Positions 1,652 to 22,130 are shown, numbered from the stretch's first letter. The stretch: 33,246 nucleotides of DNA from an uncultured Pseudomonadota bacterium (GCA_903839465.1 CAIMCI010000377.1:1-33246); one strand, 5' to 3'. A program made the numbers and translations. Notes: a model not told the origin generated them from the letters alone.

Positions 1652-4600
1652 CTAGACGAGTACGCGCTCGATTCCCCCGCCATTGGCAGCGGCAACGTAG
1701 TCCCGCGCCCAGTTGGGACCTAAGATGCGCTGCGCCATCTCGACGACGACGTAGTCGGCCTTGGCACCGACATCGTCCTCGAACCGGCTGAGACCCTGCA
1801 GGCAGGACGGGCACGAGGTCAGGACCTTGACGGGCCCCTCGTGGCCGGCGGCGCGGATTGACGCCGTGTTGCGCTCCAGCTCCGCTTCCTTGCGAAAGCG
1901 CACCTGGGTCGATATGTCGGGACGTGACACGCCGAGCGTGCCCGACTCGCCACAGCAGCGGGCACTGGCAACCACCGGTCCGTTCACGGCGCCGTTCATG
2001 AGCTCGTTGACGAGCTTCAGCGGCTCGTGCTGCTTGATCGGTGAGTGGCAGGGGTCGTGGTAGACATAGCGCACCCCTGAAATGCCGTCGAGACGCACGT
2101 CCTTCTCGAGCAGGAACTCGTGGATGTCGATCAGACGGCTGCCAGGGAAGATCTTGTCGAACTGGTAGCCGGCGAGCTGGTCGAAGCAGGTGCCGCAGCT
2201 GACGACAACGGTCTTGATATCGAGGTACGTCAGCGTGTTCGCCACCCGGTGGAACAGCACGCGATTGTCGGTCACGATCTGGTCAGCCTTGTCGAACTCG
2301 CCGGCGCCGCGCTGCGGATACCCGCAACACAGGTAGCCTGGCGGCAATACCGTCTGTACGCCAACGTGCCACAGCATCGCCTGGGTCGCGAGACCGACCT
2401 GGGAGAAGAGCCGCTCCGAGCCGCAGCCCGGGAAGTAGAAGACCGCCTCGGAATCGACCGTCGTCCGGGTCGGGTGGCGGATGATCGGCACGTAATCCTT
2501 GTTTTCGACATCCAGGAGCGCACGGGCGGTCCGCTTCGGCAGTCCGCCCGGCATCCGCTTGTTCATGAAATGAACGACCTGCTCGCGCGCCGGCGGACGG
2601 CCGGTCGTGGCCGGCGGGTTCTGCACCTGACGGCGCGCCGCGGCGCGCAGGAGCGACGTCCCCAGCCGCTGCGCGCGATAGCCCACGTCGACCATCGCCA
2701 GTCGCGCGGCCTTGATGGTCTGCGGGTGCTTGGCGTTCAGGAAGAACATCGCGGCCGCCGTGCCGAGGTTCCTGGGCTTCCTGCCCATCCGCCTGAGCAG
2801 GTTGCGCATGCCCATGGACACCTCGCCGAAGTCGATGTTGACCGGGCAGGGGCTGAGGCATTTGTGGCACAGCGTGCAGTGATCGGCGACGTCCGCGAAT
2901 TCGTTCCAGTGCTGCAGGGATACGCCGCGCCGGGTCTGTTCCTCGTAGAGGAACGCCTCGATCAGGAGCGACGTCGCGAGGATCTTGTTGCGTGGCGAGT
3001 AGAGGAGATTGGCGCGCGGCACGTGCGTGGCACAGACCGGCTTGCACTTGCCGCAGCGCAGGCAGTCCTTGATGGCCGCCGAAACGTCGCCGACCGCCGA
3101 CTGCTGCATGATGAGCGACTCGGCACCCAGCAGGCTGAAGCTCGGCGTGTAGGCCCGACGCAGGTCCGCTCCGGCCTCGAACTTACCGGCATTGAATCGG
3201 CCCTGGGGGTCGATGCGGGCCTTGTAGTCGCGAAAAGCCGCGGTTTCTGCCGCGGTCAGGAACTCGAACTTCGTGATGCCGATGCCGTGCTCGCCGGAGA
3301 TGACGCCGCCGAGCTCGCGCGCCAGCTGCATGATCCTCGCCACCGTGGCATTGGCCCGCCGCAGCATCGCGTGATCGTCGGAATTGACCGGAATGTTGGT
3401 ATGGACGTTGCCGTCGCCCGCGTGCATGTGCAGCGCGACGAATAGCCTGCCCTTCAGGACCTCCGCATGCAGCGCGGCGATCCGCCGGAGCATCGGCTCG
3501 TAGGCAGGGCCGGAGAAGAGCCGCGTCAGCGGTTCGCGGATCTCGCGCTTCCAGGACAGCCGCACGAGCCGCTCCTGCAGAAGCTCGAGCAGGACCGTCC
3601 GGTCATCGATATCGGCGCGCCTGGCGAACTCGACCTGCAGGCGACCCGGTTCTCGGGCGATCAGCGCACTGCGCACGCCGCCGAGCGGTGAATCGAGATG
3701 GTCGCGCAGGTATCGCCAGTGCTCGCGGGTGGCGCGCACGACGCCGATGGCCTCGGCCACGCGCGCCTCGTGGCTCAGGTCGCCGGCGGCATCCGCCGGC
3801 TCGCCAGCCATCTGTGGCGGAGCAGGCAGGGGCCCGCCAAGGTAGTTCTCCAGCGCGTCAAGCATCTTGAGCTTGTTCTCCGTCGACAACTCGATGTTGA
3901 TGCGCTCGATTGCGTCCGTGTACGCCCCGAGCCGCTCAAGGGGTATGACGACGTCTTCGTTGATCTTGAAGGCGTTGGTGTGGCGCGCGATCGCCGCCGT
4001 CCGGGCGCGATCCAGCCAGAAACGGCGCCGCGCCTCGGCGCCGACCGCGGTGAATCCCTCGCCGCCGCGGGCGTTGGCGAGGCGGACGACGTGCGCGGCA
4101 CTCGCTGCCACCGCCTCCGGCTCATCGCCGACGATATCCGCCAGCAGGATGAGCTTCGGCAGTCCGCCGCGTTTGGACTTCGGCGTGTAGTCGACGGCGC
4201 GCAGATATCGCTCATCGAGATGCTCAAGACCCGCCAGCCGCACTCCGCTGCCACCACTGCGGGTGTCGAGATAGGTCTTGATCTCGACGATGGCGGGAAT
4301 CGCGTTGCGCGCCGGCCCGTAGAACTCGAGGCATACCGTGCGCACGTGCGCCGGACTGCGATGCAGGATCCACCGTGCCGCGGTCACGATGCCGTCGGTG
4401 CCCTCCTTCTGCACGGCCGGGAGCCCGCCGAGGAACTTGTCCGTGACGTCCTTGCCGAGGCCGGCGTGCCGAAAGGACGCTCCCGGCAGGCTGAGTCGCT
4501 CGGTGCGAATGACCGGGGCTACGTCGGGGGCATGACGGCCGTCCTTCCAGGTCAGGTCAAAGACCGCTGTTTCGACGTCGTGGATCTTGCCGAGGTTGTG

Positions 4601-5605
4601 GCCGATGCGCGCGACCTCCAGCCAGTTGCCGTCAGGATCGACCATCCGCCACCAGGCGAGGTTGTCCAGCGCCGTACCCCAGAGCACGGCCTTCTTGCCA
4701 CCCGCATTGACGGCGATGTTGCCACCGATGCAGGACGCGTCCGCCGAGGTCGGGTCGACTGCGAAGACGAGGCCGGCCGCCTCGGCGGCGTCCGCAACCC
4801 GCCGCGTCACGACGCCGGCGCCGGTCGCGATCGTCGGCACCGCGCCGGTCAGCCCCGGCAGCGGCGTGGCGGCGACCGGTCCGAGCGTCTCGAGCTTCTC
4901 CGTGTTGATGACCGCGCTCATCGGCGACAACGGCACGGCCCCGCCCGTGTAGCCGGTGCCACCGCCGCGCGGAATGATGGTCAGGCCGAGTTCGATGCAG
5001 GCCCGCACGATGCCCGGTACTTCCGCTTCGCTATCGGGATTAAGGACAACGAACGGGTAGGCGACACGCCAGTCGGTTGCGTCGGTCACGTGCGAGACGC
5101 GGGCGAACGGATCGAAGCGGATGTTGTCGGCCCGCGTATGCCGCCCCAGTACGCGCCGGGCCCGGCGTCGCAGCCGTTCGGTGCGGCCGAACGTCTCGGC
5201 AAACTCCGTCGTCGCCCGGCGTGCCAGTTCCAGGAGACGCACGACCCGCGGGTCACCGGCCGCGTCGCGACGCCGGTCAATCTCGCGCAGGCGGTGCTCG
5301 AGTGCCTCGCAGAGCAGGCGCCGGCGCTTGCGGTTGGCCAGCAGGTCGTCCTGCAGGTAGGGATTCCGCTCCACGATCCAGAGGTCGCCGAGCACCTCGT
5401 AGAGCATGCGCGCCGAGCGGCCGGTGCGACGCTCGCGCCTGAGCTCCTCGATCAGCCGGCGGCCCTCGGCGCCCAACAGTCGCTCGCAGATTTCGAGGTC
5501 GGCCAGCGACGTGTAGTTGTAGGGGATCTCGCGCAGGCGCACGCCCTCGAGCGGCGGTGTTGCCGGCTCGGGTCGCGTTCCGACGTTCACGTTTTCAGCT
5601 GTCAT
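1652..5605 (-). CDS. DUF3683-family FAD/4Fe-4S/CCG-domain D-2-hydroxyacid dehydrogenase
   Basis: This 1317-aa protein joins modules that are separate subunits in glycolate oxidase (GlcD/GlcF). In order: DUF3683 N-terminal region (about 22-110), FAD-binding domain of the PCMH type (about 165-340, with [12 protein letters not shown] and [10 protein letters not shown]), FAD-oxidase C-terminal domain ending in [15 protein letters not shown] and [13 protein letters not shown] (to about 810), two 4Fe-4S motifs (Cys848/851/854/858 and Cys910/913/916/920), and two CCG domains (about 1057-1140 and 1182-1268). The family oxidises D-2-hydroxyacids such as D-lactate or D-2-hydroxyglutarate and passes electrons through the clusters to the respiratory chain. 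E. coli YdiJ (1018 aa) is a shorter relative. I chose the ATG at 5605 because similarity begins soon after it; the frame runs to 5707 and an ATG at 5683 is possible. No strong Shine-Dalgarno precedes either. It lies 134 bp downstream of serC on the same strand. Confidence 0.88.
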
Positions 5606-5739
5606 GCGGGCGTGGCGGCGTTTCGGGTGGAATCCGGCCACCTCTCGGGGGCGGTCGCGCCAGAATGGCACATCGCCGTGCATCGCCGTGCAGGCAGCCA
5701 GCACCACCGGTGCTTGCGACCCAACCGACGGTTAGTGTC

Positions 5740-7917: not shown

Positions 7918-10527
7918 ATGCCGAGTCCGTTCCCCGCTGTCCTCCGGCACGCCGCCAGCCGTGTGCCGGCGACCGTCGTGCTCTGCCTCGCACTGGCCGC
8001 CTGTGGCGGCGGCGGCGGTTCATCCGCCCCCGGCGTCGGCGGCGCGGGCCTGAAGACGACGCCCAATCCCGCCGCCCCGACCGCGCTCAGCGGCAGCAGC
8101 GTGACCGCCACCAGCGTCACGCTGACGTGGACGGCGGCGACGGATACCGGCGGACCCGGCATCGCCGGCTACCGTGTCTACCGAAGCGGCACGACTGCCG
8201 CGATCGCGGCCGTCACGACGGGCACCGCCTATACGGACAACGGCCTTTCGCCAGCGACGGCCTATACCTACCAGGTCGAGTCGTACGACCGGAGCAATCC
8301 GGCTCTCGCCTCGCAAAGCCGCGCCAGCCTGACGGTCACCACAGCGTCCGCCCAGCCGCATCCGCAGGCTCCCGGCACGCCGGGCTCGGTGACGGTGAGC
8401 GCCGTGTCCTCGACGAGCGCGACACTGACCTGGGCCGTGGCCAGCGACGGCTTCGGACCGGGTGTCGCCGGCTACTACGTCTACCGCAACGGCAACACCA
8501 GCGTTCCGGTGGCCACGGTCACCAGCGGCACGACATATACCGATGCCGGACTGACATCGGCGACCGTCTATGAATACCAGGTTGCGGCCTACGACAAATC
8601 CGTCCCGGCGCTGGTCTCGGCACCGAGCGCTGTCGTCACGGCGACCACCACCGGTACGGCCGGCGGTCCGTCGGCGCCGTCGACGCCGGCCGGTCTGAAG
8701 ATCAGTGCGGTCACCAATTCGGGCCTCACGCTGTCGTGGGCCGCAGCCTCCGACGGCACGGGACCTGGGATCGCCGGCTATCGGATCTACCGCAACGGCA
8801 ACACGACGGCGCCGGTGGCCGTGACGGCCTCGACCTCGTTCTCGGATAGCGGTCTGACCGCCCAGACCAGCTACAGCTACCAGGTCGCGGCCTACGACAA
8901 GTCCGCGACGCCGGTCCAGTCCGCCCTCAGTGCCACGGTCTCGGCGACGACGCTTGCCAATCCTCCGCCACCGGTCTCCGCCATCGACGCGGCACGCCTT
9001 CTCGACCAGGCGACGTTCGGTGCCACCCAGGGCGATGTCGGCCACGTCCAGGCGGTCGGGGTCCAGAAGTACCTGCAGGAACAGATGGCCCTTCCTGCCA
9101 CGCTGTACTCGATCCCCTACGCACCGCTGCCGATGCCTACCAACTGCACGTTCAACAGCGCCGATCCGGTCGCTACGCTTTGCGCACGCGAGACCTACAG
9201 CTCTTACCCGCTGCAGCGGCAGTTCTTCCAGCGGGCCATAACCGCGTCCGACCAGTTGCGGCAACGGGTGGCCTTCGCGCTGTCGCAGATCTTCGTGGTA
9301 TCGGATCGCGACTTCTATCCGACCTACGCGATGGCTGACTACCAGAACATGCTGGCGCGCGACGCATTCGCCAACTACCGGACGCTGATCGAGGACGTGA
9401 CGCTCAACCCGGTGATGGGCAAGTACCTCGACATGGCCAACAACGACAAGAGCAACCCTGCGAAGGGCACCACGCCGAACGAGAACTACGCCCGCGAGAT
9501 CCTCCAGCTCTTCTCGATCGGCCTGGTGCAGCTGAAGGCCGATGGAACCGTCGTCACCGACGGCAGCGGCAACGCGGTGCCGACGTACGACCAGAACGTG
9601 ATCGAGGGCTTCGCCTACCTCTTTACAGGCTGGACCTATCCGCCGGTTGCCGGCGCCACGTCGAAATGGACGAACGCCACGAACTACGGGGCGCCGATGG
9701 TATCGTTCGCTGCCCACCACGAGACGGGCACGAAGCTCCTCCTGAACGGATTCACGGTGCCGGCCGGTCAGACGCCTGACCAGGACCTGAAGGTGGCGCT
9801 GGATACGATCTTCAATCACGCGAACGTCGGTCCGTTCATCGGCCGGCAGCTGATTCAGCATCTAGTGACCAGCAATCCGAGCCCCGCCTACGTCGCGCGG
9901 ATATCGGCCGTGTTCGCCAACAACGGCCACGGCGTGCGCGGCGACCTGGGCGCGGTCGTCGCGGCCATCCTGACCGACCCCGAGGCGCGCGGCGACCAGC
10001 CGTCCACGCTGAGTTTCGGCAAGCTCCGTGAACCGGCGCTCGTCCTGACAGCGGCGCTGCGTACACTGGGCGGCCAGACCGACGGCGTTGCGCTCGAGTC
10101 CGTTGCAAACAACATGGCCCAGCCGATCTACTCGCCGCCGACGGTGTTCAACTTCTTCCCGCCGAGCTACCAGATACCCGGCTCCACCAATCTCGGCCCG
10201 GAATTTTTCATCGACGACGCGGCGACCAGCCTGACGTACACGAACTACATCAACCAGCTCGTCTTCCACGGCGGCTACACGCCGGTGGCGAACGTCGCGA
10301 ACAGCACCGGCACCACGGTATCGCTGGCAGCCTACGCGGCGATCAGCGACCCGGGCGCACTGGTCGATCGCCTGAACGCCGTGCTGATGCACGGCTCGCT
10401 GTCGGCACCGGCCCGGGCGGCGATCCTGACCGCGGTGAACGCGGTACCCGCGACGAACCCGCTCGGCCGGGCCCAGACCGCCGCCTATCTGCTTCTGTCT
10501 TCCGGCCAGTACCGGGTGGAGCGCTGA
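7918..10527 (+). CDS. Lipoprotein with three FN3 domains fused to DUF1800
   Basis: The 869-aa product starts with a lipoprotein signal ending in LALAAC (Cys29), followed by a Gly-rich linker. Three fibronectin type III repeats follow at about residues 51-143, 153-245 and 255-346. Each shows TLTW or TLSW, GPGIAGY or GPGVAGY, a YRNG or YRSG turn, and YQV; repeats 2 and 3 share NGNT and YQVAAYDKS and are the closest pair. From about 355 to the end lies the DUF1800 domain (AARLLDQATFGAT, EQM, NENYAREILQLFSIG, FIGRQLIQHLVTSNPSP, FGKLREPALVLTAALRTLGG). DUF1800 has no established reaction. It is typically encoded beside DUF1501, as here. The ATG at 7918 has AGGG about 7 nt upstream. The protein is probably anchored in a membrane leaflet with the FN3 array as spacer or binding arm. 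The next gene starts 1 nt after the stop. Confidence 0.88.
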   Translation: MPSPFPAVLRHAASRVPATVVLCLALAACGGGGGSSAPGVGGAGLKTTPNPAAPTALSGSSVTATSVTLTWTAATDTGGPGIAGYRVYRSGTTAAIAAVTTGTAYTDNGLSPATAYTYQVESYDRSNPALASQSRASLTVTTASAQPHPQAPGTPGSVTVSAVSSTSATLTWAVASDGFGPGVAGYYVYRNGNTSVPVATVTSGTTYTDAGLTSATVYEYQVAAYDKSVPALVSAPSAVVTATTTGTAGGPSAPSTPAGLKISAVTNSGLTLSWAAASDGTGPGIAGYRIYRNGNTTAPVAVTASTSFSDSGLTAQTSYSYQVAAYDKSATPVQSALSATVSATTLANPPPPVSAIDAARLLDQATFGATQGDVGHVQAVGVQKYLQEQMALPATLYSIPYAPLPMPTNCTFNSADPVATLCARETYSSYPLQRQFFQRAITASDQLRQRVAFALSQIFVVSDRDFYPTYAMADYQNMLARDAFANYRTLIEDVTLNPVMGKYLDMANNDKSNPAKGTTPNENYAREILQLFSIGLVQLKADGTVVTDGSGNAVPTYDQNVIEGFAYLFTGWTYPPVAGATSKWTNATNYGAPMVSFAAHHETGTKLLLNGFTVPAGQTPDQDLKVALDTIFNHANVGPFIGRQLIQHLVTSNPSPAYVARISAVFANNGHGVRGDLGAVVAAILTDPEARGDQPSTLSFGKLREPALVLTAALRTLGGQTDGVALESVANNMAQPIYSPPTVFNFFPPSYQIPGSTNLGPEFFIDDAATSLTYTNYINQLVFHGGYTPVANVANSTGTTVSLAAYAAISDPGALVDRLNAVLMHGSLSAPARAAILTAVNAVPATNPLGRAQTAAYLLLSSGQYRVER

Positions 10528-10528
10528 C

Positions 10529-11935
10529 ATGGACCGCCGACAATTCCTGCGTCACTCAGGCGCGATCTCCGGTTCGCTCGCCTTCGGGCAGATTGCAGCG
10601 CTCTCGACGCGGGCCGCGGTACCCGGTGACTACAAAGCGCTCGTCTGCATCTTCCTCTACGGCGGGAACGATTCGAACAACATGATCGTCCCGGTGACGA
10701 CAGCCGGTTATCAGAGCTACGCGGCCGCGCGCGGTCCGCTTGCCCTCGGTGATCCGAAAAGCGGCAACCCGTTCGGCGGCGTCGACGCCGGTGGCAACTC
10801 GACCGCGCTGCTGCCGCTCGTTGACGGCTCCGGCCAGGCGACCTACGGAGTGCACAACGCCTTACCGGGCGTCCGCGACCTGTGGAATTCGGGCGAGCTT
10901 GCCGTCGTCGCCAACGTCGGCACGCTGACCGCACCGCTGACGAAGCCCGACTACCTCAGCGGCAAGTCGCGACCGGAGAACCTCTTTTCCCATATCGACC
11001 AGCAGCACCAGTGGCAGACGGCGGCATCGTCAAGCGCCGACATCGCCTCCGGCCTTGGCATAACGGGCTGGGGCGGTCGGCTGCTCGACCGGCTCGCCGC
11101 GCTGAATACCGGCTCGTCCGTGCCGGCCATGATCTCGACTGCCGGCAACAACCTCCTGATCACGGCGCCGGCCGCCCGCTCGCTGGTGGTTCCGGCAACC
11201 GGGTCCTTCGGCGTCCAGGGTTTCTCGAACTCCAGCGCCGATGTCGCCCGCCGGAATGCCCTTGCGCAGCTCCTTAGCATCGACAACCAGTACGATCTTG
11301 TCCATGCCACCGAGGGCGTCATGTCCAGCGCGCTGACCAGCAGCGCCCTCGTGAATCCGCTGCTGACCTCGACCACGACAACGTCCGCGACCTATTTCAG
11401 CGGCCTGACGTCGGGATTCGCGCAGCAGATGCTCGCCATCGCGAAGCTGATCGAGGGTCGCAGCGCACTCGGTGCACAGCGGCAGCTCTTCCTCGTCAAC
11501 CTGGGCTCGTTTGATACGCACACGAACGAAATCGCGACGCACCAGAAGCTCTATACCGACCTTGGCGTAGGCCTCAACGCCTTCCACGCCGCGATGACGG
11601 CGATCGGTGCAGCGGCAAACGTCACCTCGTTCACGCTGTCCGACTTTTCACGCACTCTCAAGCCGAACACGGGCGGCGGTTCGGACCACGGCTGGGGCAG
11701 CCACCACCTCGTAACAGGCGGCGCGGTCAAGGGCAAGGCGATCTACGGCACCATGCCGACGCTGCAGCTCGGCGGAACCGACGACGAAGGCGGCGAAGGC
11801 CGGTGGATCCCGACAACGGCCGTGGACCAGTACGCGGCCACACTGGCCACGTGGTTCGGCGCAAGCCCCGCCGATATCGCCGTCGCCCTGCCGAACTTCA
11901 AAGCCTTCCCGGCGGGCGTGCTGCACTTCCTCTGA
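10529..11935 (+). CDS. DUF1501 protein with twin-arginine signal
   Basis: The product is 468 aa. It opens with MDRRQFLRHSGAISGSLAFG, a twin-arginine export signal, so it is expected to be folded in the cytoplasm, perhaps around a cofactor or metal, and then exported. DUF1501 is related to the alkaline phosphatase/sulfatase fold. Its typical blocks are present: FLYGGNDSNNMIVP (Asp and Asn near the start of the mature domain), FLVNLGSFDTHTNE, and TLSDFSRTLKPN followed by GGSDHGWGSHH. The conserved Asp/His residues fit metal ligands, although catalysis is not demonstrated. The ATG lies 1 nt after the TGA of the FN3-DUF1800 gene, with GGTGGAG 7-8 nt upstream inside that gene. The two are therefore almost certainly one translationally coupled operon. 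Its stop is 13 bp from the convergent GH3 gene. Confidence 0.88.
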   Translation: MDRRQFLRHSGAISGSLAFGQIAALSTRAAVPGDYKALVCIFLYGGNDSNNMIVPVTTAGYQSYAAARGPLALGDPKSGNPFGGVDAGGNSTALLPLVDGSGQATYGVHNALPGVRDLWNSGELAVVANVGTLTAPLTKPDYLSGKSRPENLFSHIDQQHQWQTAASSSADIASGLGITGWGGRLLDRLAALNTGSSVPAMISTAGNNLLITAPAARSLVVPATGSFGVQGFSNSSADVARRNALAQLLSIDNQYDLVHATEGVMSSALTSSALVNPLLTSTTTTSATYFSGLTSGFAQQMLAIAKLIEGRSALGAQRQLFLVNLGSFDTHTNEIATHQKLYTDLGVGLNAFHAAMTAIGAAANVTSFTLSDFSRTLKPNTGGGSDHGWGSHHLVTGGAVKGKAIYGTMPTLQLGGTDDEGGEGRWIPTTAVDQYAATLATWFGASPADIAVALPNFKAFPAGVLHFL

Positions 11936-13986: not shown

Positions 13987-16203
13987 TCAGTCGTAATCGA
14001 ACGACGGGCTCTTGTTCTTTTTCTGGGCGCCGAACGTCCACGTCAGGCCGACATAAAAGATCCGCCCGACGATCTGCCGCTGGTAGGTCTGCTGCAGGGT
14101 CGGTGTACTGGCGTAGCGCCGGTAACGCTGGCCGTTGAAGACATCCGACGCGGTGGCGACAAGCGTCAGCTCCCTGTTGAGGACCCGCCTGTAGCCGAGG
14201 TTGACGACATCGATGGCGTCGACAAAGCCCTGGGGTGTCAGTCGCTTGTCGGAGCGGGTGAATGTCAGCTGCGCGGAATCCGCCGGCCGCGGATGGAAGT
14301 CGAACTGGGCCTTCAGGTTGATCCCGGCCGTCGACCGCAACCCCGGGTAGCCGAGAGACGACGCGTCGATCTCGCTGTGAAAGGCGTTGGCGCTGAGATT
14401 GTAGGAAAGCGCCGCGGCCAGGCGACCGCTCAACGCGGCCTCGAGGCCGAAGGCGTCGTTCTTCGGCAGGTTTGCCTTGGTCGTCAGCGAAAATCCGCCA
14501 CCGAGATAGCGCGTCACGTCGGTGACAGTGTCGGCATTGCGACGGGCATAGGCGGTGAGCGAATACGCATCAACCGGCGTTTCACGGGCGAACGTGAGCT
14601 CGACGCCGCGCGTGTCCTGCGGGCGCAGGTCCGGGTTGCCGGCGCGGAGATTGGGCGTGTACTCGCGATCGATGTAGGGATTTAAAGAGTCCGGATCGGG
14701 CCTCGCGATCCGCCGCGAGGCACCGAATGACAGTGTCGCGGTCTCGGACAGCGTGCGCTCGACACGAAGCGACGGGTAGATCCGGCGGGCCCGGTGCCGG
14801 GACTGTTCGTTGTCCGTCAGTTGCCGCAGGCGGAGCGTCTCGTCCTCGAGCCGCAGTCCGCCGAGGCCGCTCCAGGGCCCCGCGCTGTCGCGCAGGCTCA
14901 CGTAGGCGGCATGGATCTGGCGGACGACCTGGAATTCATTGCTGAGATTGGGGTCCGTCACGAACGTTCCTGTGCCGTCCTTCTCGGGCGCCGTGGACGC
15001 TCCGGATCGGTAGTTCTCCTCGCCGGCGTCATAGCCGGCCTTGAAAATCCGCGTCTTCGTCAGCGGCAGGACGTAATCGACCGATGCCCCGTTGTTGAGG
15101 GAATCCTCATCCAGCCGGAAGCGGCTGCGCGATTCCACCGCTGCCGGAACGTAGGCCGTGACGAGGTAGGCGTAGTCCTCGCGCTGGTAGAAGAACGAGC
15201 GGCTGACGGTCAGGGTCAGCTCTTCGCCCGCCGTTGCGAATCGGTGCCCGTAGCTGAGTTCCTGCTCGGAAGACATCGACCAGTCGTGTCCTGCACTTTG
15301 CCTGCGGTAGCTCGCCACCGTCGCCCCGTCGGCGTCGGCGCTCGAGCCCAGCTGGGTGTAGTAGCGATTGCCGGAGCGTACGGTCCGCGCGGCGGACGCG
15401 CTGACGGAGTCGGCTTCGGTGGGATCAAAGCCGATCGAGGCTTTAAACACCGGGACGTGGCGGTGGATGGTCTCGTCGATCGCATTGACACTGGTCAGTT
15501 CGGACCCGCCGGAGACCGTCGGGGCGACGAGCGTCGAATTCACGAGACGGCGACGCAGGTCCGAGCGCAGGGTCGCGTGGACGGACAGCGTCCACGGCCC
15601 GGACTTCCCGGCCAGTTGCCCGCCGTAGGTGGAGCGGCCACCGCTGCCGGCGCCGGCCTGCAGGCCGCCGGACGTGCCGGCGCCGGTTTTGCGCTTGAGA
15701 ACGATATTGATGACGCCCGCCGTGCCCTCGACCTTGAATTGCGGCGGCGGAGTCGTATAGACCTCGATCCGGTCGATATCGTTCGCCGGAATCTGTTGCA
15801 GGGCATCGCCCGCGGCCGGTCCGGAAAGCTCGGCGGAAGGGCGGCCATTGATCAGGATCAGCACGTGGCTGTCACCGCGCAGCGAAACCGACCCCTCGCC
15901 ATCGACCTCGACGGAGGGAATGTTGCCGAGGATGTCGGCCAGCGAGCCGAAATCGGCCTGCGCGTCGTCGGCGAGGTTATAGACCTTGCTGTCGAGCCGC
16001 GTTTCGACGCGAAGCCTGCCCGCGGTCACCACGACTTCGCGGCGGGTCGTGTCAGCGACCGGTACTGTCGCGTCCTCGCCGCTGGCGGCCCTCGCGGCGA
16101 GGAGCGACGCCGCCACGGTCAGGGTCGCGACGCGACCCGGCCACCGTCGACGGTGTATCGCGATGCTGCGGACCGCACTCGGGTCGTTACAGTGCCGTGA
16201 CAT
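13987..16203 (-). CDS. TonB-dependent outer-membrane receptor
   Basis: The product is 738 aa. After an Arg-rich N-terminus with a hydrophobic signal core (VATLTVAASLLAARAASG) comes a TonB-box-like EVVVTAG (about 56-62) and a plug domain (about 65-170) with LADILGNIPSVEVDGEGSVSLRG, VLILINGRPSAEL and the IEVYTTPPPQFKVEGTAGVINI block. The remaining 560 residues are beta-barrel strands ending near VGLTWTFG, with a 14-residue polar tail. It is closest to receptors with the OMP_b-brl_3 barrel; a substrate cannot be read from sequence, but the downstream GH3 enzyme suggests an oligosaccharide. The ATG at 16203 has AAGGA 4-5 nt upstream. The frame continues to 16377, but that part is not signal-like. 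The region upstream is a 340-bp divergent spacer shared with the efflux operon. Confidence 0.88.
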   Translation of the reverse strand: MSRHCNDPSAVRSIAIHRRRWPGRVATLTVAASLLAARAASGEDATVPVADTTRREVVVTAGRLRVETRLDSKVYNLADDAQADFGSLADILGNIPSVEVDGEGSVSLRGDSHVLILINGRPSAELSGPAAGDALQQIPANDIDRIEVYTTPPPQFKVEGTAGVINIVLKRKTGAGTSGGLQAGAGSGGRSTYGGQLAGKSGPWTLSVHATLRSDLRRRLVNSTLVAPTVSGGSELTSVNAIDETIHRHVPVFKASIGFDPTEADSVSASAARTVRSGNRYYTQLGSSADADGATVASYRRQSAGHDWSMSSEQELSYGHRFATAGEELTLTVSRSFFYQREDYAYLVTAYVPAAVESRSRFRLDEDSLNNGASVDYVLPLTKTRIFKAGYDAGEENYRSGASTAPEKDGTGTFVTDPNLSNEFQVVRQIHAAYVSLRDSAGPWSGLGGLRLEDETLRLRQLTDNEQSRHRARRIYPSLRVERTLSETATLSFGASRRIARPDPDSLNPYIDREYTPNLRAGNPDLRPQDTRGVELTFARETPVDAYSLTAYARRNADTVTDVTRYLGGGFSLTTKANLPKNDAFGLEAALSGRLAAALSYNLSANAFHSEIDASSLGYPGLRSTAGINLKAQFDFHPRPADSAQLTFTRSDKRLTPQGFVDAIDVVNLGYRRVLNRELTLVATASDVFNGQRYRRYASTPTLQQTYQRQIVGRIFYVGLTWTFGAQKKNKSPSFDYD

Positions 16204-16543
16204 GGGATCCTTGGCGTGGAGTGCGTGGCGCTCGACCGTTCCTGATGACCGCCTCTCGGGCTCGCCAGCCGGCAGCGGGCGACGGCCGCCCGGAACGACG
16301 GGGCACGGCCAACACGCATCAGGGACGGCAAGGTTAGGGCAAACGGACCGGTCTGGGTACACGCTGCGTTCCGTCAAACGTCGGCTCCGGCGTGGTCCGG
16401 TCGGGCGATGACACGACGGCTAATGCGCGGTTAATACTTCGCCGGCACTGTACGGCCCGTTACCATACCGCCACGCGCTTCGCAGCCGTCCCGGATCCGG
16501 TTCGGTCGGCGTCCGTGACCGTCCGAGCCCCTCCGAGCAGACC
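16204..16543. other. Divergent spacer between TonB receptor and efflux operon
   Basis: This 340-bp stretch has no convincing gene; the short open frames in it are Arg/Pro-rich and lack ribosome sites. It should carry promoters for both flanking operons. On the minus strand TTGACG (complement of 16372-16377) could be a -35 for the receptor, but the -10 at the proper distance is poor. The best plus-strand candidate is listed separately at 16408-16437. I see no regulator gene next to the pump, which is unlike many RND operons. Confidence 0.5.
16408..16437 (+). promoter_or_regulatory. Candidate sigma-70 promoter for the efflux operon
   Basis: ATGACA (16408-16413, five of six matches to the -35 consensus) is followed after 18 bp by TAATAC (16432-16437, a weak -10). 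The start codon of the outer-membrane factor gene lies about 105 bp further on. The weak -10 keeps this tentative. Confidence 0.3.
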
Positions 16544-17902
16544 ATGCCGAATTCCCGACGACCCCGGCCGATCCGCCTGCTGACGCTAGGCCTCGCGATG
16601 GCGCCGCTGCTGGACGCCTGTGCGCTGTACCACGCGGCGCCGCTGGACGAGACGGCCGGCAGGCCACTGGCCTCCCTGACCGTCCCGGCGGCGACGGCGC
16701 TGCCCGGGGGCGGGCGGGTGCACGCCTTCGATGCCACCGACGGGCTCGACGCCACCGAAGTGGCCATGGTGGCCGTCGTCTACAGTCCGCAGCTGCGCAT
16801 CCTGCGCGCGCAGGCCGCGGTGGGCAAAGCCCAGGCCTTTGCGGCCGGGCTGCTGCCGGATCCGGTCTTCGGGCTCAGCCGTGACCAGCCGAGCACCGGA
16901 CAGGTGGGCGCATCGACCGCCTATACACGCGGCGTGAGCTGGGATTTCGGCCAGCTCGTCACCTACGGGGCACGGCAGTCGGCCCGGGGCCACACGGACG
17001 AGCAGGTCCATCTCGACGTGCTCTGGGGTGAGTGGCAGGTGGTCAGCCAGTCGCGCCTGCTCTTTGTCAGGATCCAGCGCGGCCGCGCACTGGTTGAGCG
17101 GCTGGAGAAGGAAACGGAGGTGCTGCGTCCGTTCCAGCCGCGACTCGCCGCGGCACTCCGCCAGGGCACCCTTACTTTCGATGTCGCCACGACCGGCCTG
17201 ACCGCGGCGTCGGACGTCGCCCGGCAGCTCAGCGATGCCCGGACGTCGCTCTCGACGGCCGAGCACGACCTGCGAGAACTGCTGGGACTGGGCGCCGATG
17301 AACCGCTGCGGCTGGTAGGAGACGGCGAGCCACCGGCGCTGAGCGAAGCCGACGTTTACGTCGCGCTCAGCGCCTCGCCGCCGCGGCGCCCGGACCTGCG
17401 CGCGCTGCACGAGGGCTACGCGGCGCAGGACGCCCGTCTGCGGGCCGCCATTCTGGGCCAGTTCCCGATGGTGAACTTCGGCATCAACCGGTCACGGGAC
17501 AACAGCAACATCTCGAGTTCCGGGTTCACGCTGTCCGTCAGCCTGCCGATCTTCGACCGCAATCAGGGAGCCGTGCGCATCGAGCAGGCGACCCGCGAGC
17601 AGCTGAATGCCGAGTACAGCCAGCGACTGCTGGCGGCGCATTCCGACGTGTCGCGATTGCTCGCGGCCGAGAAGATTCTGCTCGATCGTGAAGCGACCCT
17701 GGCGCCGTACGCGAAGGACCTGGCGACGACGGTCGAGCACGCCGAACGCGCCTACGCCAAGGGACTGATGGACTGGACGACCTACCTCGGCCTGCGGCAA
17801 AGCGCGCTCGCCGCCGACGTCGAGCTGGTCGGCGTGAGGCTCCTGCTGGCCGAGACCCGCATCGGCCTTGCGACGCTGGCCACCGGTGACTGGCCGGCAT
17901 GA
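16544..17902 (+). CDS. TolC-family outer-membrane efflux lipoprotein
   Basis: The 452-aa product is the outer-membrane channel of a tripartite pump. A lipoprotein signal ends at LLDAC (Cys26). The mature part contains two copies of the outer-membrane efflux protein repeat, with long heptad-rich helices such as the region around VAMVAVVYSPQLRILRAQA and ADVELVGVRLLLAETRIGLA, and GFTLSVSLPIFDRNQGAVR, which is a typical strand-to-helix block of the family. Length is normal. Start is the ATG at 16544 with a weak GAG ahead. Its stop overlaps an ATG of the next gene (ATGA at 17899-17902), and the adaptor and pump follow, so it is the first gene of the operon. Substrate is unknown. Confidence 0.88.
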   Translation: MPNSRRPRPIRLLTLGLAMAPLLDACALYHAAPLDETAGRPLASLTVPAATALPGGGRVHAFDATDGLDATEVAMVAVVYSPQLRILRAQAAVGKAQAFAAGLLPDPVFGLSRDQPSTGQVGASTAYTRGVSWDFGQLVTYGARQSARGHTDEQVHLDVLWGEWQVVSQSRLLFVRIQRGRALVERLEKETEVLRPFQPRLAAALRQGTLTFDVATTGLTAASDVARQLSDARTSLSTAEHDLRELLGLGADEPLRLVGDGEPPALSEADVYVALSASPPRRPDLRALHEGYAAQDARLRAAILGQFPMVNFGINRSRDNSNISSSGFTLSVSLPIFDRNQGAVRIEQATREQLNAEYSQRLLAAHSDVSRLLAAEKILLDREATLAPYAKDLATTVEHAERAYAKGLMDWTTYLGLRQSALAADVELVGVRLLLAETRIGLATLATGDWPA

Positions 17903-17928
17903 AGCACGAGAGAACCCGGAGTCCGACT

Positions 17929-19068
17929 ATGATCAACTGGCTTACCTGGCGCTGGTCGCTGGCCGTCGCGCTTGGCGTGATGCTGGCGCTGACCGCGGGC
18001 CTTCATGCGAGCCGTGCGACCGACGGTCCCGACGCCAAGCCGGCAGCAGGCGGTGCGGCGCCCGCGTCGGCCACCGAGCCGGCTGCCGACAAGGCAGCGG
18101 AACCGGGCCCCTCGTCATACCCGATCGTGTCGGTCCTGCCCGTCGAGCGCGACGTGGCACAGACCGTCCGCGGCTTCGGCACGGTCAGGGCGGATGCGCG
18201 TACGGCCAAAACGCTCACGAGCCCGACCCAGATCGTGGTCACGGCGGTGCACGTGATCCAGGGCGAGCGGGTCAAGCGCGGCCAGCCGCTCTTCACCACG
18301 GAGCCTGATCCTGCCGCTCACCTCGCCTATCAGCAGGCACTCAGCGCCGCGCGCCTCGCGCGCCGGGAAGTCGATCGCCTGGTGGCCCAGCGGGCCGACT
18401 CGCTGGCCACCGAAAGTCAGGTCGATGCCGCCCAGAAAGCACTCGCCGATGCCAACGCCGGCGTCGAGGCAGCCCGTCGACTCGGTGCCGACGCCGGCAG
18501 CACGACCGTCGTCGCACCGGCCGATGGCGTCATCGTCGCGATCCTCGTTGCCGCGGGCGACCGGCCGGCCGTCGGTACGCCACTCGCCCAGCTCGCGCCG
18601 GATGCCGAGCGCATCAGCGTCGGGATCGAACCGGGCGCACGGCGCCTCGTCCATGTCGGCGACCGGGTCACGGTGCGCTCCGTGCAGACCGCCGACCCGC
18701 CGCGCACGGGCCGTGTCGCCGCCGTCGGGGCGGCGCTCGATCCGGAGACGCGCCTCGTCAACGTCGCCGTCCGGCTCGATCCGGGCGCCGGCGAGGCGCT
18801 CCTGTCCGGCCTGGCCGTGGACGTCGTGATCGAGGTTGCGAAGGTGCGGGCCTTCTCGCTGCCGCGCGCCGCCGTGCTCAGGGACGACAGCGAGACCTAC
18901 GTGTATGAAGTACACGACGGCAAGGCGCGGCGGGTCCCGGTCGGCATCGTCGCGGACGAAGGCGCGCGGATTGGCGTGACGGGCGACCTGTCGACGGAAC
19001 GCCGGGTCGTGACGACCGGCGCCTACCAGCTCGAGGACGGCGTCGTCGTGGAGGAAAGCCGGCCGTGA
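17929..19068 (+). CDS. RND efflux periplasmic adaptor (membrane fusion protein)
   Basis: The 379-aa product begins with an N-terminal hydrophobic segment (LTWRWSLAVALGVMLALTAG) that anchors or exports it, then an Ala/Pro-rich linker. The lipoyl/barrel-sandwich halves are visible as TVRGFGTVRADARTAKTLTS and STTVVAPADGVIVAILVAAGDRPAVG, separated by a short alpha-hairpin (about 130-180). A beta-barrel domain follows with VTVRSVQTADPPRTGRVAAVG and a membrane-proximal domain near the end. It bridges the inner-membrane pump and the outer-membrane channel. I chose the ATG at 17929 because GGAG lies 7 nt upstream; an ATG at 17899 overlaps the previous stop and is the alternative (389 aa). Its own TGA overlaps the GTG of the pump gene, so translation is coupled. 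Confidence 0.87.
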   Translation: MINWLTWRWSLAVALGVMLALTAGLHASRATDGPDAKPAAGGAAPASATEPAADKAAEPGPSSYPIVSVLPVERDVAQTVRGFGTVRADARTAKTLTSPTQIVVTAVHVIQGERVKRGQPLFTTEPDPAAHLAYQQALSAARLARREVDRLVAQRADSLATESQVDAAQKALADANAGVEAARRLGADAGSTTVVAPADGVIVAILVAAGDRPAVGTPLAQLAPDAERISVGIEPGARRLVHVGDRVTVRSVQTADPPRTGRVAAVGAALDPETRLVNVAVRLDPGAGEALLSGLAVDVVIEVAKVRAFSLPRAAVLRDDSETYVYEVHDGKARRVPVGIVADEGARIGVTGDLSTERRVVTTGAYQLEDGVVVEESRP

Positions 19069-22000
19069 ACTTCATGGCATGGCTGCAGAGCCACCGTCGC
19101 TCGGTCCTCTTCCTCGGCGCCCTGCTCGCCCTGGGCGGGCTGGTGTCGATCCCCGTCCTGCCGGTCTCGCTCTTTCCCATTGCCGACTTCCCGCGGGTTG
19201 TCGTCGCCGTCGACGCCGGCGACCGGGCAGCCGAGCAGATGGTGCTCCTGATCACCCAGCCGATCGAAGAGGCCGTCCGCCGCGTGCCTGGCGTGCACGC
19301 GGTGCGGTCGAGAACCAGTCGCGGCGCGACCGACGTATCGATCAGCTTCGACTGGGGCACGGACATGGCAACCGCCACCCTTGAGGTGAACGCCGCCCTG
19401 AGCCAGGTGCTGCCCAGCCTGCCCGCCGGCGTCACGACGACGACCCGGCGCATGGACCCGACGGTGTTCCCGATGCTGGCCTACAGCCTGCGCAGCGATA
19501 CCCTGACGCCGACGGCGCTGCGTGATCTCGCCGCCTACCAGCTGCGGCCGCTGCTCGCGGGCATCGACGGGGTTGCCCACGTCGACGTCCAGGGCGGCGC
19601 GGTCGAGGAATACCATGTCGACGTCGACCCGCGCCGCCTGCGCGCGACGGGCGTGGCGCTGGACGACGTCGTCAACGCCGTCACCGCCTCGACCACGCTC
19701 GACGCGCTCGGTCGGGCGGATGACTTCTACAAGCTCTACCTGATGCTCGGTGACAACCATCCGGCCGACATCCCGGCGCTGGCGGGCATCGTCGTCAAGT
19801 CGACCCCCGGTGGCCTCGTTCGTGTCGGCGATGTGGCCACGGTCACCACGGGCGCCGTTCCGCAGTGGATCCGGGTCACGGCCGACGGCCGCGACGCCGT
19901 GCTGCTGCAGGTCTATCAGCAGCGGGACGGCAATACCTCGGCCATCGCCCGGGCCGTGACCGCCCGGCTGGCGGCGTTCAAGCCACGCCTGCCCGGTGGT
20001 GTGACCGTGTCGGAGTGGTACAACCAGGCCGACCTGATCGCCGCCTCGGCAGGCAGCGTGCGTGACGCGCTCGTCATCGGCGTGATCCTGGCCGGGTTGA
20101 TCCTGTGGGTGTTCCTGCGCAGCAGCCGCATGATCGCGCTCGCGCTCCTGGTCGTGCCGGCCGCCCTCGCCGGTACCGTCGTCGTGCTGCGCATGCTGGG
20201 GCTGACCTTCAACCTGATGACCCTGGGCGGCATGGCAGCGGCCGTTGGCCTCGTCATCGACGATGTCATCGTGATGGCCGAGCACATCGCGCGCCGGCTC
20301 GCCGAAACGTCGGGTCCGCTCACCGCCAGGATCAGCACGGCCGCCTGGGAATTCACGGTGCCGCTCGCCGGTTCGTCGGCGGCGACGATCGTCATCTTCT
20401 TGCCGCTCGCATTCCTCGGCGGCGTGACGGGTGCTTTCTTCAAGTCGCTGTCGATCACGATGGCGAGCGCGCTGATCATTTCGTTCCTGCTGTCCTGGCT
20501 CGTCGTTCCGCTGCTCGCCGGCGCGATCCTCGGCCGGCACGCGCCGGGCCATGGGCTCGCCCGACCGCTGGCCCGGATCGACCGGGCCTTCGCGTCGCTG
20601 TCGGGCCGCCTGTCCGCCTCACCGCTGCTGCTCGCGGGCGCGCTGCTGCCGCTTCTCGTCCTCGGGGGCGTGGCCTTCCAGCGGGCGGGCACGGGCTTCA
20701 TGCCCGCCATGGACGAGGGCGGTTTCGTCCTCGACTACCGCTCCGCACCGGGCACCTCGCTCGAGGAGACCGACCGCCTGCTGCGGCGGGTCGAGGAGAT
20801 CATCCGCGCCAACCCGAGCGTGGACACGTACTCCCGCCGTACCGGCCTGCAGCTCGGCGCGGGACTGACGGAGGCCAACGAGGGCGACTTCTTCATCCGC
20901 CTCAAGCGCGGCCAGCGCGCGCCGGTCGAGGACGTGATGTCGACGATCCGCGCCGAGATCGCCGCGAAAGTGCCTGGTCTGGACATCGAACTCGCGCAGC
21001 TGATGGAAGACCTGATCGGCGACCTCGTCGCCGTGCCACAGCCCGTCGAGGTGAAGCTCTTCGGCGACGACCCGGCGGAACTTGAAGCCGCCGCGCTTGC
21101 GACGGCGAAGCGACTGGCCGCGCTGCCGGGCATCGTCGACGTCAAGAACGGACTGAACCCGGCCGGCGATGCCCTCATGATCGCAGTGGACCCGACCAAG
21201 GCGGCCACCGAGGGCATGACACCGGCAGCCATACACCAGCAGGTCGGCGCATTCGCCGACGGCACGGTCGCCACCCAGCTGCCACGCGGCCCGAAGACGG
21301 TGGGCGTGCGCGTCTGGATGCCGCCCGAGGGCCGCCAGCGGCTCGCCAGCCTCGGGCACCTGAATATCACGGCACCCGATGGCCACGTCTTCAGCCTGTC
21401 CCGGGTGGCGACGATCCGGGAGGTCCGCGGCCAGCCGGAAGTGACGCGGGATAACCTGAAGCGACTCGTCGCCGTGACGGCCCGCATCTCCGGTCACGAC
21501 CTCGGCGCCGCGGTGGCCGCCGTGAAGGCGAGCCTCGACCGGCCGGGCAGCCTGCCGGCCGGGGTCTACTACGCGATGGGCGGACTGTACGAGCAGCAGC
21601 AGCTCGCCTTTCGCGGCCTGCTGGGCGTGCTCGCCGCGGCCATCGCCCTCGTCTTCACGTTACTGCTGTTCCTGTACGAGAGGATGCGGATCGCGGCCCT
21701 CGTCCTCGCGATGCCGCTCCTCGCGCTGCCCGCCGTCTTCATCGGCCTGTGGGCCGCGGGTCTGACGCTCAACATCTCGGCAATGATGGGGCTGACCGTG
21801 GTCGTCGGCATCGTCACCGAGGTTGCCATCTTCTTCCTCTGCGAGCTTCAGGACCAGCTGCGCACCCAGCCACTCGCGGCGGCCATCGTCGCTGCCCGCA
21901 GCCACCGGATCCGGCCCATCATCATGTCGGCGCTGGCGGCCCTGCTGACGCTGCTACCCCTCGCCTTCGCCCTCGGCGAGGGCGCCGAGATGCAACAACC

Positions 22001-22130
22001 CCTGGCGATTGCGATCGTCGCCGGCCTCTGCCTCGAGGTGCCGCTGGTGCTCGTGATCCTGCCGGCTCTGCTGCAGCTGACCCTCGGCGCCGGGGCGACG
22101 TCGTTGCGGGGCAACGTCGCCGACACCTGA
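19065..22130 (+). CDS. RND efflux pump, inner-membrane permease
   Basis: The 1021-aa product has the duplicated RND plan: one N-terminal helix, a large periplasmic domain (about 30-330), a block of helices (about 335-500), a connecting segment, a second helix near 525-545, a second periplasmic loop (about 550-840) and a final helical block. The motif GLVIDDVIVMAEHIARRLAE in the fourth helix carries paired Asp residues used for proton relay in hydrophobe/amphiphile exporters; the heavy-metal exporters usually have a different sequence there. It is therefore likely a multidrug-type pump, though the substrate is unknown. The start is the GTG at 19065, overlapping the adaptor stop, with GAGGAA about 8 nt upstream; an ATG at 19074 is the alternative. 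Length is close to the family norm. Confidence 0.88.
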   Translation: MNFMAWLQSHRRSVLFLGALLALGGLVSIPVLPVSLFPIADFPRVVVAVDAGDRAAEQMVLLITQPIEEAVRRVPGVHAVRSRTSRGATDVSISFDWGTDMATATLEVNAALSQVLPSLPAGVTTTTRRMDPTVFPMLAYSLRSDTLTPTALRDLAAYQLRPLLAGIDGVAHVDVQGGAVEEYHVDVDPRRLRATGVALDDVVNAVTASTTLDALGRADDFYKLYLMLGDNHPADIPALAGIVVKSTPGGLVRVGDVATVTTGAVPQWIRVTADGRDAVLLQVYQQRDGNTSAIARAVTARLAAFKPRLPGGVTVSEWYNQADLIAASAGSVRDALVIGVILAGLILWVFLRSSRMIALALLVVPAALAGTVVVLRMLGLTFNLMTLGGMAAAVGLVIDDVIVMAEHIARRLAETSGPLTARISTAAWEFTVPLAGSSAATIVIFLPLAFLGGVTGAFFKSLSITMASALIISFLLSWLVVPLLAGAILGRHAPGHGLARPLARIDRAFASLSGRLSASPLLLAGALLPLLVLGGVAFQRAGTGFMPAMDEGGFVLDYRSAPGTSLEETDRLLRRVEEIIRANPSVDTYSRRTGLQLGAGLTEANEGDFFIRLKRGQRAPVEDVMSTIRAEIAAKVPGLDIELAQLMEDLIGDLVAVPQPVEVKLFGDDPAELEAAALATAKRLAALPGIVDVKNGLNPAGDALMIAVDPTKAATEGMTPAAIHQQVGAFADGTVATQLPRGPKTVGVRVWMPPEGRQRLASLGHLNITAPDGHVFSLSRVATIREVRGQPEVTRDNLKRLVAVTARISGHDLGAAVAAVKASLDRPGSLPAGVYYAMGGLYEQQQLAFRGLLGVLAAAIALVFTLLLFLYERMRIAALVLAMPLLALPAVFIGLWAAGLTLNISAMMGLTVVVGIVTEVAIFFLCELQDQLRTQPLAAAIVAARSHRIRPIIMSALAALLTLLPLAFALGEGAEMQQPLAIAIVAGLCLEVPLVLVILPALLQLTLGAGATSLRGNVADT

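Follow-up and report, generated by a model that had tools for sequence, protein, structure and literature searches.

The DUF1800-DUF1501 locus

The window, by which we mean the whole 33,246-nucleotide stretch of DNA analyzed here, comes from an uncultured Pseudomonadota bacterium and carries two adjacent genes on the same strand, the first encoding a DUF1800 protein with an N-terminal arm and the second a DUF1501 protein. As presented in Table 1, the open reading frames, Pfam matches, lipobox and junction bear out the original prediction of a lipoprotein with three FN3 repeats and a DUF1800 domain, followed after 1 nt by a DUF1501 protein with a Tat signal. Both domain assignments are full-length: the DUF1800 domain scored 292 bits against a curated cut-off of 26.1 and covered positions 1-417 of the 419 in the PF08811 profile, and the DUF1501 protein matched PF07394 at residues 36-415 (E 2.9e-28; 99.6 bits against a cut-off of 27; profile positions 2-342 of 390). 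The lipobox with Cys29 after the signal marks the first protein as a lipoprotein. The second begins with MDRRQFLR, a twin-arginine signal from which export by Tat is predicted, and TatC was found in the window's genome.

Table 1. Positions of the features of the DUF1800-DUF1501 pair in the window.
Feature	Position	Strand	Basis
FN3-arm and DUF1800 lipoprotein gene, 869 aa	7918..10527	+	ORF call; Pfam
Sec lipoprotein signal, lipobox LAAC, Cys29 then Gly	7918..8004	+	sequence
Three FN3 repeats, residues ~53-125, 151-228, 253-325	8074..8892	+	limits of second repeat approximate
DUF1800 domain, residues 360-865	8995..10512	+	PF08811 E 9e-87; model pLDDT 96
NENYARE motif of DUF1800, invariant, residues 521-527	9478..9498	+	relatives compared
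Junction TGA-C-ATG, gap 1 nt	10525..10531	+	read from DNA
DUF1501 protein with Tat signal, 468 aa	10529..11935	+	ORF, Pfam; model pLDDT 88
R3-R4 twin arginine, Tat signal	10535..10540	+	invariant, 59 sequences
D48, candidate metal ligand	10670..10672	+	invariant among DUF1800-paired proteins; Ser in PSD1-paired
S154-H155, candidate nucleophile and neighbouring His, helix start	10988..10993	+	conservation, model
D329-T-H331, candidate metal ligands	11513..11521	+	conservation
D372-F-S-R375, conserved D/E-F-x-R	11642..11653	+	conservation
D386-H387, conserved DH	11684..11689	+	conservation

The single nucleotide between stop and start codons makes translational coupling of the two genes likely. 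Since an outer-membrane barrel gene lies upstream on the opposite strand and a convergent GH3 gene lies 13 nt downstream, the pair forms a two-gene unit; a scan for sigma-70-like promoters and terminators around it gave none above chance. Elsewhere in the window we observed a TonB-type receptor with an OMP_b-brl_3 barrel (13987-16377, minus strand), a three-gene RND efflux set adjoining it (16544-22130, plus strand), and a 1351-aa protein with DUF3683, FAD-oxidase, 4Fe-4S, cysteine-rich and DUF3400 domains (1652-5707, minus strand).

Pairing of the two families across genomes

We surveyed 150 genomes of the phylum, each at least 90% complete, which held 44 DUF1501 places and 42 DUF1800 genes (one split across contig ends), in addition to one degraded DUF1800 fragment. 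In a coordinate tally, all 42 DUF1800 genes lay immediately upstream of DUF1501 on the same strand, and 42 of the 44 DUF1501 places were so paired; 40 of the paired loci were re-read from DNA. All 80 named relatives, which belong to Proteobacteria, Acidobacteria, Verrucomicrobia and Marinimicrobia, had the same gene order. Such near-obligate pairing is far beyond chance. The original prediction held that the two families commonly occur side by side and named as a point against itself that the genes might be mostly apart in other genomes; the opposite was seen in the survey and in the relatives alike.

Two DUF1501 genes lack a DUF1800 gene. One adjoins a subtilase gene; the other, in G042, is a divergent twin-arginine DUF1501 gene that follows within a few nt a 553-aa lipoprotein without Pfam family (L201:9879-11540, minus strand), so that this lipoprotein occupies the position usually taken by DUF1800.

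Protein distances of the two families correlated at r 0.94 over 120 pairs; two subfamilies taken singly gave 0.92 and 0.82. Shared genome ancestry is still contained in these values. The window's genome has two pairs, one per subfamily, the second on contig C323. Both families are also present in the laboratory organism Caulobacter vibrioides. Three to five pairs were present in several genomes, with up to five per genome in G145, and a Vibrio maritimus plasmid (NZ_CP090440.1) has five DUF1501 places. Complete pairs were also found on plasmids of Vibrio, Sphingomonas, Agarilytica and Acidisarcina, where the neighbours were not constant. Across Proteobacteria we found no constant neighbours outside the pair, hence no pointer to a substrate from this source. 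No DUF1800 match was found in a phage genome collection; an uncultured tailed-phage record in BFVD (A0A6J5M749) encodes a DUF1800 family protein, at 27% identity and TM 0.78.

In five Opitutae loci (L059, L075, L093, L094, L105), the pair lies upstream of pseudopilin genes of the GspG-M type. Twelve loci, among them L105 (10399-10926), have a small gene directly after DUF1501 whose C-terminus resembles GspG (profile E 0.00073) and which matched no Pfam family. This neighbourhood would suit a non-catalytic surface structure or a secretion accessory, for example one tied to type II pseudopili, a reading that we regard as most improbable. GspG was present in 12 of 29 pair-bearing genomes against 75 of 121 others, which rules out a requirement for type II secretion and makes the Opitutae neighbourhood a local association; moreover, catalytic-type residues are conserved in DUF1501, as described below.

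Fold and conserved residues of DUF1501

A PDB sequence search with both window proteins returned nothing beyond FN3. The AlphaFold2 model of DUF1501, built from 59 sequences of the window protein and its relatives, had a mean pLDDT of 88, and all 50 listed structural alignments of it were to the alkaline-phosphatase superfamily. The best listed match was a phosphodiesterase (Z 18.0, 251 residues, 3.6 A), with a bacterial NPP nearly equal; the order given by Foldseek differed, with choline sulfatase first and MCR catalytic domains also at the top. Judged from the model, DUF1501 has the alkaline-phosphatase-superfamily fold, in agreement with the alkaline phosphatase/sulfatase-like superfamily to which the original prediction had assigned it. 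Within this fold, shared over about 250 residues, the Asp/His pattern of DUF1501 resembles the metal ligands of NPP and other enzymes of the superfamily. DUF1501 differs from NPP-type enzymes in a helical insertion at about residues 139-314, in the D-x-H spacing and in having no detectable sequence similarity to them, and a sequence-profile alignment for metal-ligand mapping gave no meaningful alignment.

Residues D48, S154, H155, D329, H331, D/E372, R375, D386 and H387 are conserved among DUF1501 relatives. At the level of sequence conservation, the metal-site check that the original prediction had proposed yields candidate Asp/His ligands and a putative nucleophile that are kept across relatives, not the lack of conserved ligand residues that it had named as a second point against itself, and the invariance of R3-R4 in all 59 sequences is in line with the predicted export of DUF1501 by Tat. 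By our reading of the secondary structure in the model, S154 would lie at a helix start, in the position expected for the nucleophile of the superfamily fold. In eight PSD1-associated DUF1501 proteins, no variation was seen at H155, D329 and H331 and very little at E372, R375, D386 and H387, with D48 replaced by Ser and S154 by Asn or Ala. The nucleophile is thus not universal, and these replacements suggest that DUF1501 subfamilies may differ in chemistry.

The original prediction left a choice between a phospho- and a sulfo-ester substrate. The C/S-x-P/A-x-R formylglycine motif is absent from the window protein, which argues against an S1 sulfatase. In our judgement it is consequently very unlikely that DUF1501 works as a sulfatase on sulfated glycans to which the arm binds, even with choline sulfatase heading the Foldseek list, sulfatase genes often neighbouring PSCyt genes in Verrucomicrobia (PMC5615132) and modules of glycan-binding type in some arms; besides the missing motif, NPP-type phosphodiesterases ranked slightly higher in the finer structural comparison.

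Fold and conserved residues of DUF1800

The model of the DUF1800 domain was almost wholly helical, with a mean pLDDT of 96 and a pTM of 0.95. Foldseek against the PDB gave nothing below E 0.001 and a second structural comparison reached Z 3 at most, which is noise; because the search used the entire domain, more than 400 residues long, the missing PDB match does not prove that the fold is new. The DUF1800 subfamily of the window protein is a distinct one (about 290 versus 400 Pfam bits). In both subfamilies, E522, N523, R526, E527, G535, T570, G571 and R715 show little or no variation, and H601 is mostly kept. An invariant polar set of this density would be surprising in a purely passive holder, and DUF1800 therefore likely contributes actively to function.

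This polar core is more strictly conserved than the residues of DUF1501, and DUF1800 is the protein that bears the targeting arm. Together with the DUF1501 proteins that lack D48 and S154, these observations could indicate that catalysis, for example on a glycan, lies mainly with DUF1800, and that DUF1501 serves as an accessory or regulatory subunit. We consider this arrangement decidedly unlikely: DUF1800 has no match to a known enzyme fold, and most of the candidate metal residues of DUF1501 are kept across families.

Variability of the N-terminal arm

The length preceding the DUF1800 domain ranged from about 14 to 900 residues among homologues. In the 57 arms scanned, we found CHRD (20), TIG (8), PA14 (5), I-set, GLEYA, TSP3 and Calx-beta (4 each), fn3 (2), and SLH, NPCBM, FG-GAP, cadherin and others (one each). 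Modules of these kinds are typical of exposed proteins, and the arm therefore has the look of an exchangeable part for targeting or spacing. About a quarter of the homologues showed a lipobox pattern, most of them proteobacterial; many of those without it have an ordinary signal peptide, as judged by eye. FN3 repeats and lipid anchoring thus characterize the window copy, not the system. A substrate held or presented by a lipid-anchored FN3 partner, as had been proposed, cannot be the general mechanism, given the rarity of fn3 among the arms and a lipid anchoring that is not general.

Known and related systems

The DUF1800-DUF1501 pair is already on record. It was described in 2016 as an operon pair adjoining bacterial chitin synthase genes, in Dickeya, Pectobacterium and Agrobacterium vitis next to horizontally acquired chitin synthases, and its Tat motif was noted (PMC5122149). 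In SAR202, COG4102 and COG5267 have been mentioned together as families that are abundant and uncharacterised (PMC6946804). The literature mentioning DUF1501 or DUF1800 gave no tested function for either. The chitin-synthase-linked pair has the same two families, the same adjacency and the same DUF1501 Tat motif as the window; the window differs in its FN3 arm and its distinct DUF1800 subfamily. We rejected the window as an operon of that kind: it has no chitin synthase or epimerase, its neighbours being the outer-membrane barrel, GH3, TonB-type receptor and RND pump genes.

DUF1501 comes directly after PSD1 proteins in Verrucomicrobia, an order with which a published PSCyt2 neighbour pattern agrees (PMC5615132). 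The PSCyt2/PSD1 (DUF1549/DUF1553)-DUF1501 modules of Planctomycetes and Verrucomicrobia likewise place a large exported partner directly upstream of a twin-arginine DUF1501 protein; unlike the window, they have another partner family, along with the replaced D48 and S154. The window pair is not such a module, since its DUF1800 protein has no such Pfam match. Profiles of the canonical DUF1800 subfamily matched PSD1 profiles at E 0.0024 (20 sequences) and 0.0091 (28 sequences), a similarity centred on one 50-residue motif and equalled by 1 of 200 column shuffles, and the variant subfamily gave no match to PSD1; a distant DUF1800-PSD1 relation is suggestive only. At L119:1-3014, a PSD3/PSD5/PSD4/PSCyt3/PSD2 protein precedes a DUF1552 protein. 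The C-terminus of the former also matches PSD1 (E 0.00023), which suggests that PSD1 and PSD2 are related.

We summarize the general layout as follows: the gene of a large exported partner, which can belong to different families, precedes that of a Tat-signal protein. As DUF1501 is also found behind PSD1-type partners and one Pfam-less partner, its partners may be swapped. A different large exported protein ahead of DUF1501 in another lineage is also what an enzyme with a client would show, and the strict 1:1 pairing, fixed order and coupled translation would suit DUF1501 acting on DUF1800, the latter being, in place of a partner enzyme, a dedicated acceptor or client that undergoes modification or maturation once exported. 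We hold this to be unlikely, because the dense invariant polar set of DUF1800 resembles an active or ligand site more than a modification site, and because the client families would differ widely from one another.

Proposed function of the pair

Taken together, the gene pairing, the DUF1501 fold, the residue conservation and the arm variability lead us to propose, at about even chances, an exported metal-dependent phosphoesterase or phosphotransferase module with DUF1800 as obligate working partner and the arm setting where the module acts. DUF1501 would fold in the cytoplasm, probably with metal, leave by Tat, and act as a metal-dependent phosphoesterase or phosphotransferase using Ser154. 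DUF1800 would leave by Sec, to be lipid-anchored in the lineage of the window, and would serve as a dedicated partner whose own conserved pocket may function in substrate binding or assembly. The two proteins would form a physical complex, presumably acting on an envelope or surface-glycan substrate, and the N-terminal arm, FN3 in the window, would be an exchangeable spacer or binding module that sets the location of this complex. The general idea of an exported enzyme pair in the original prediction thus holds in part, through adjacency, fold and residues, without its lipid-anchored FN3 arm mechanism.

A broader and more speculative possibility, which we consider somewhat doubtful, is that a broad class of exported two-protein systems has DUF1501 as its constant, catalytic half. 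The other half would be exchanged among DUF1800, PSCyt2/PSD1 and unnamed families, possibly with a distant common core, and DUF1800 would represent a new fold and have an active site of its own.

The pair is spread across many phyla, and a single genome often has more than one copy. The strict pairing, an enzyme fold and a conserved, structurally unmatched partner make a focused bench test possible, for which the residues to mutate are named here.
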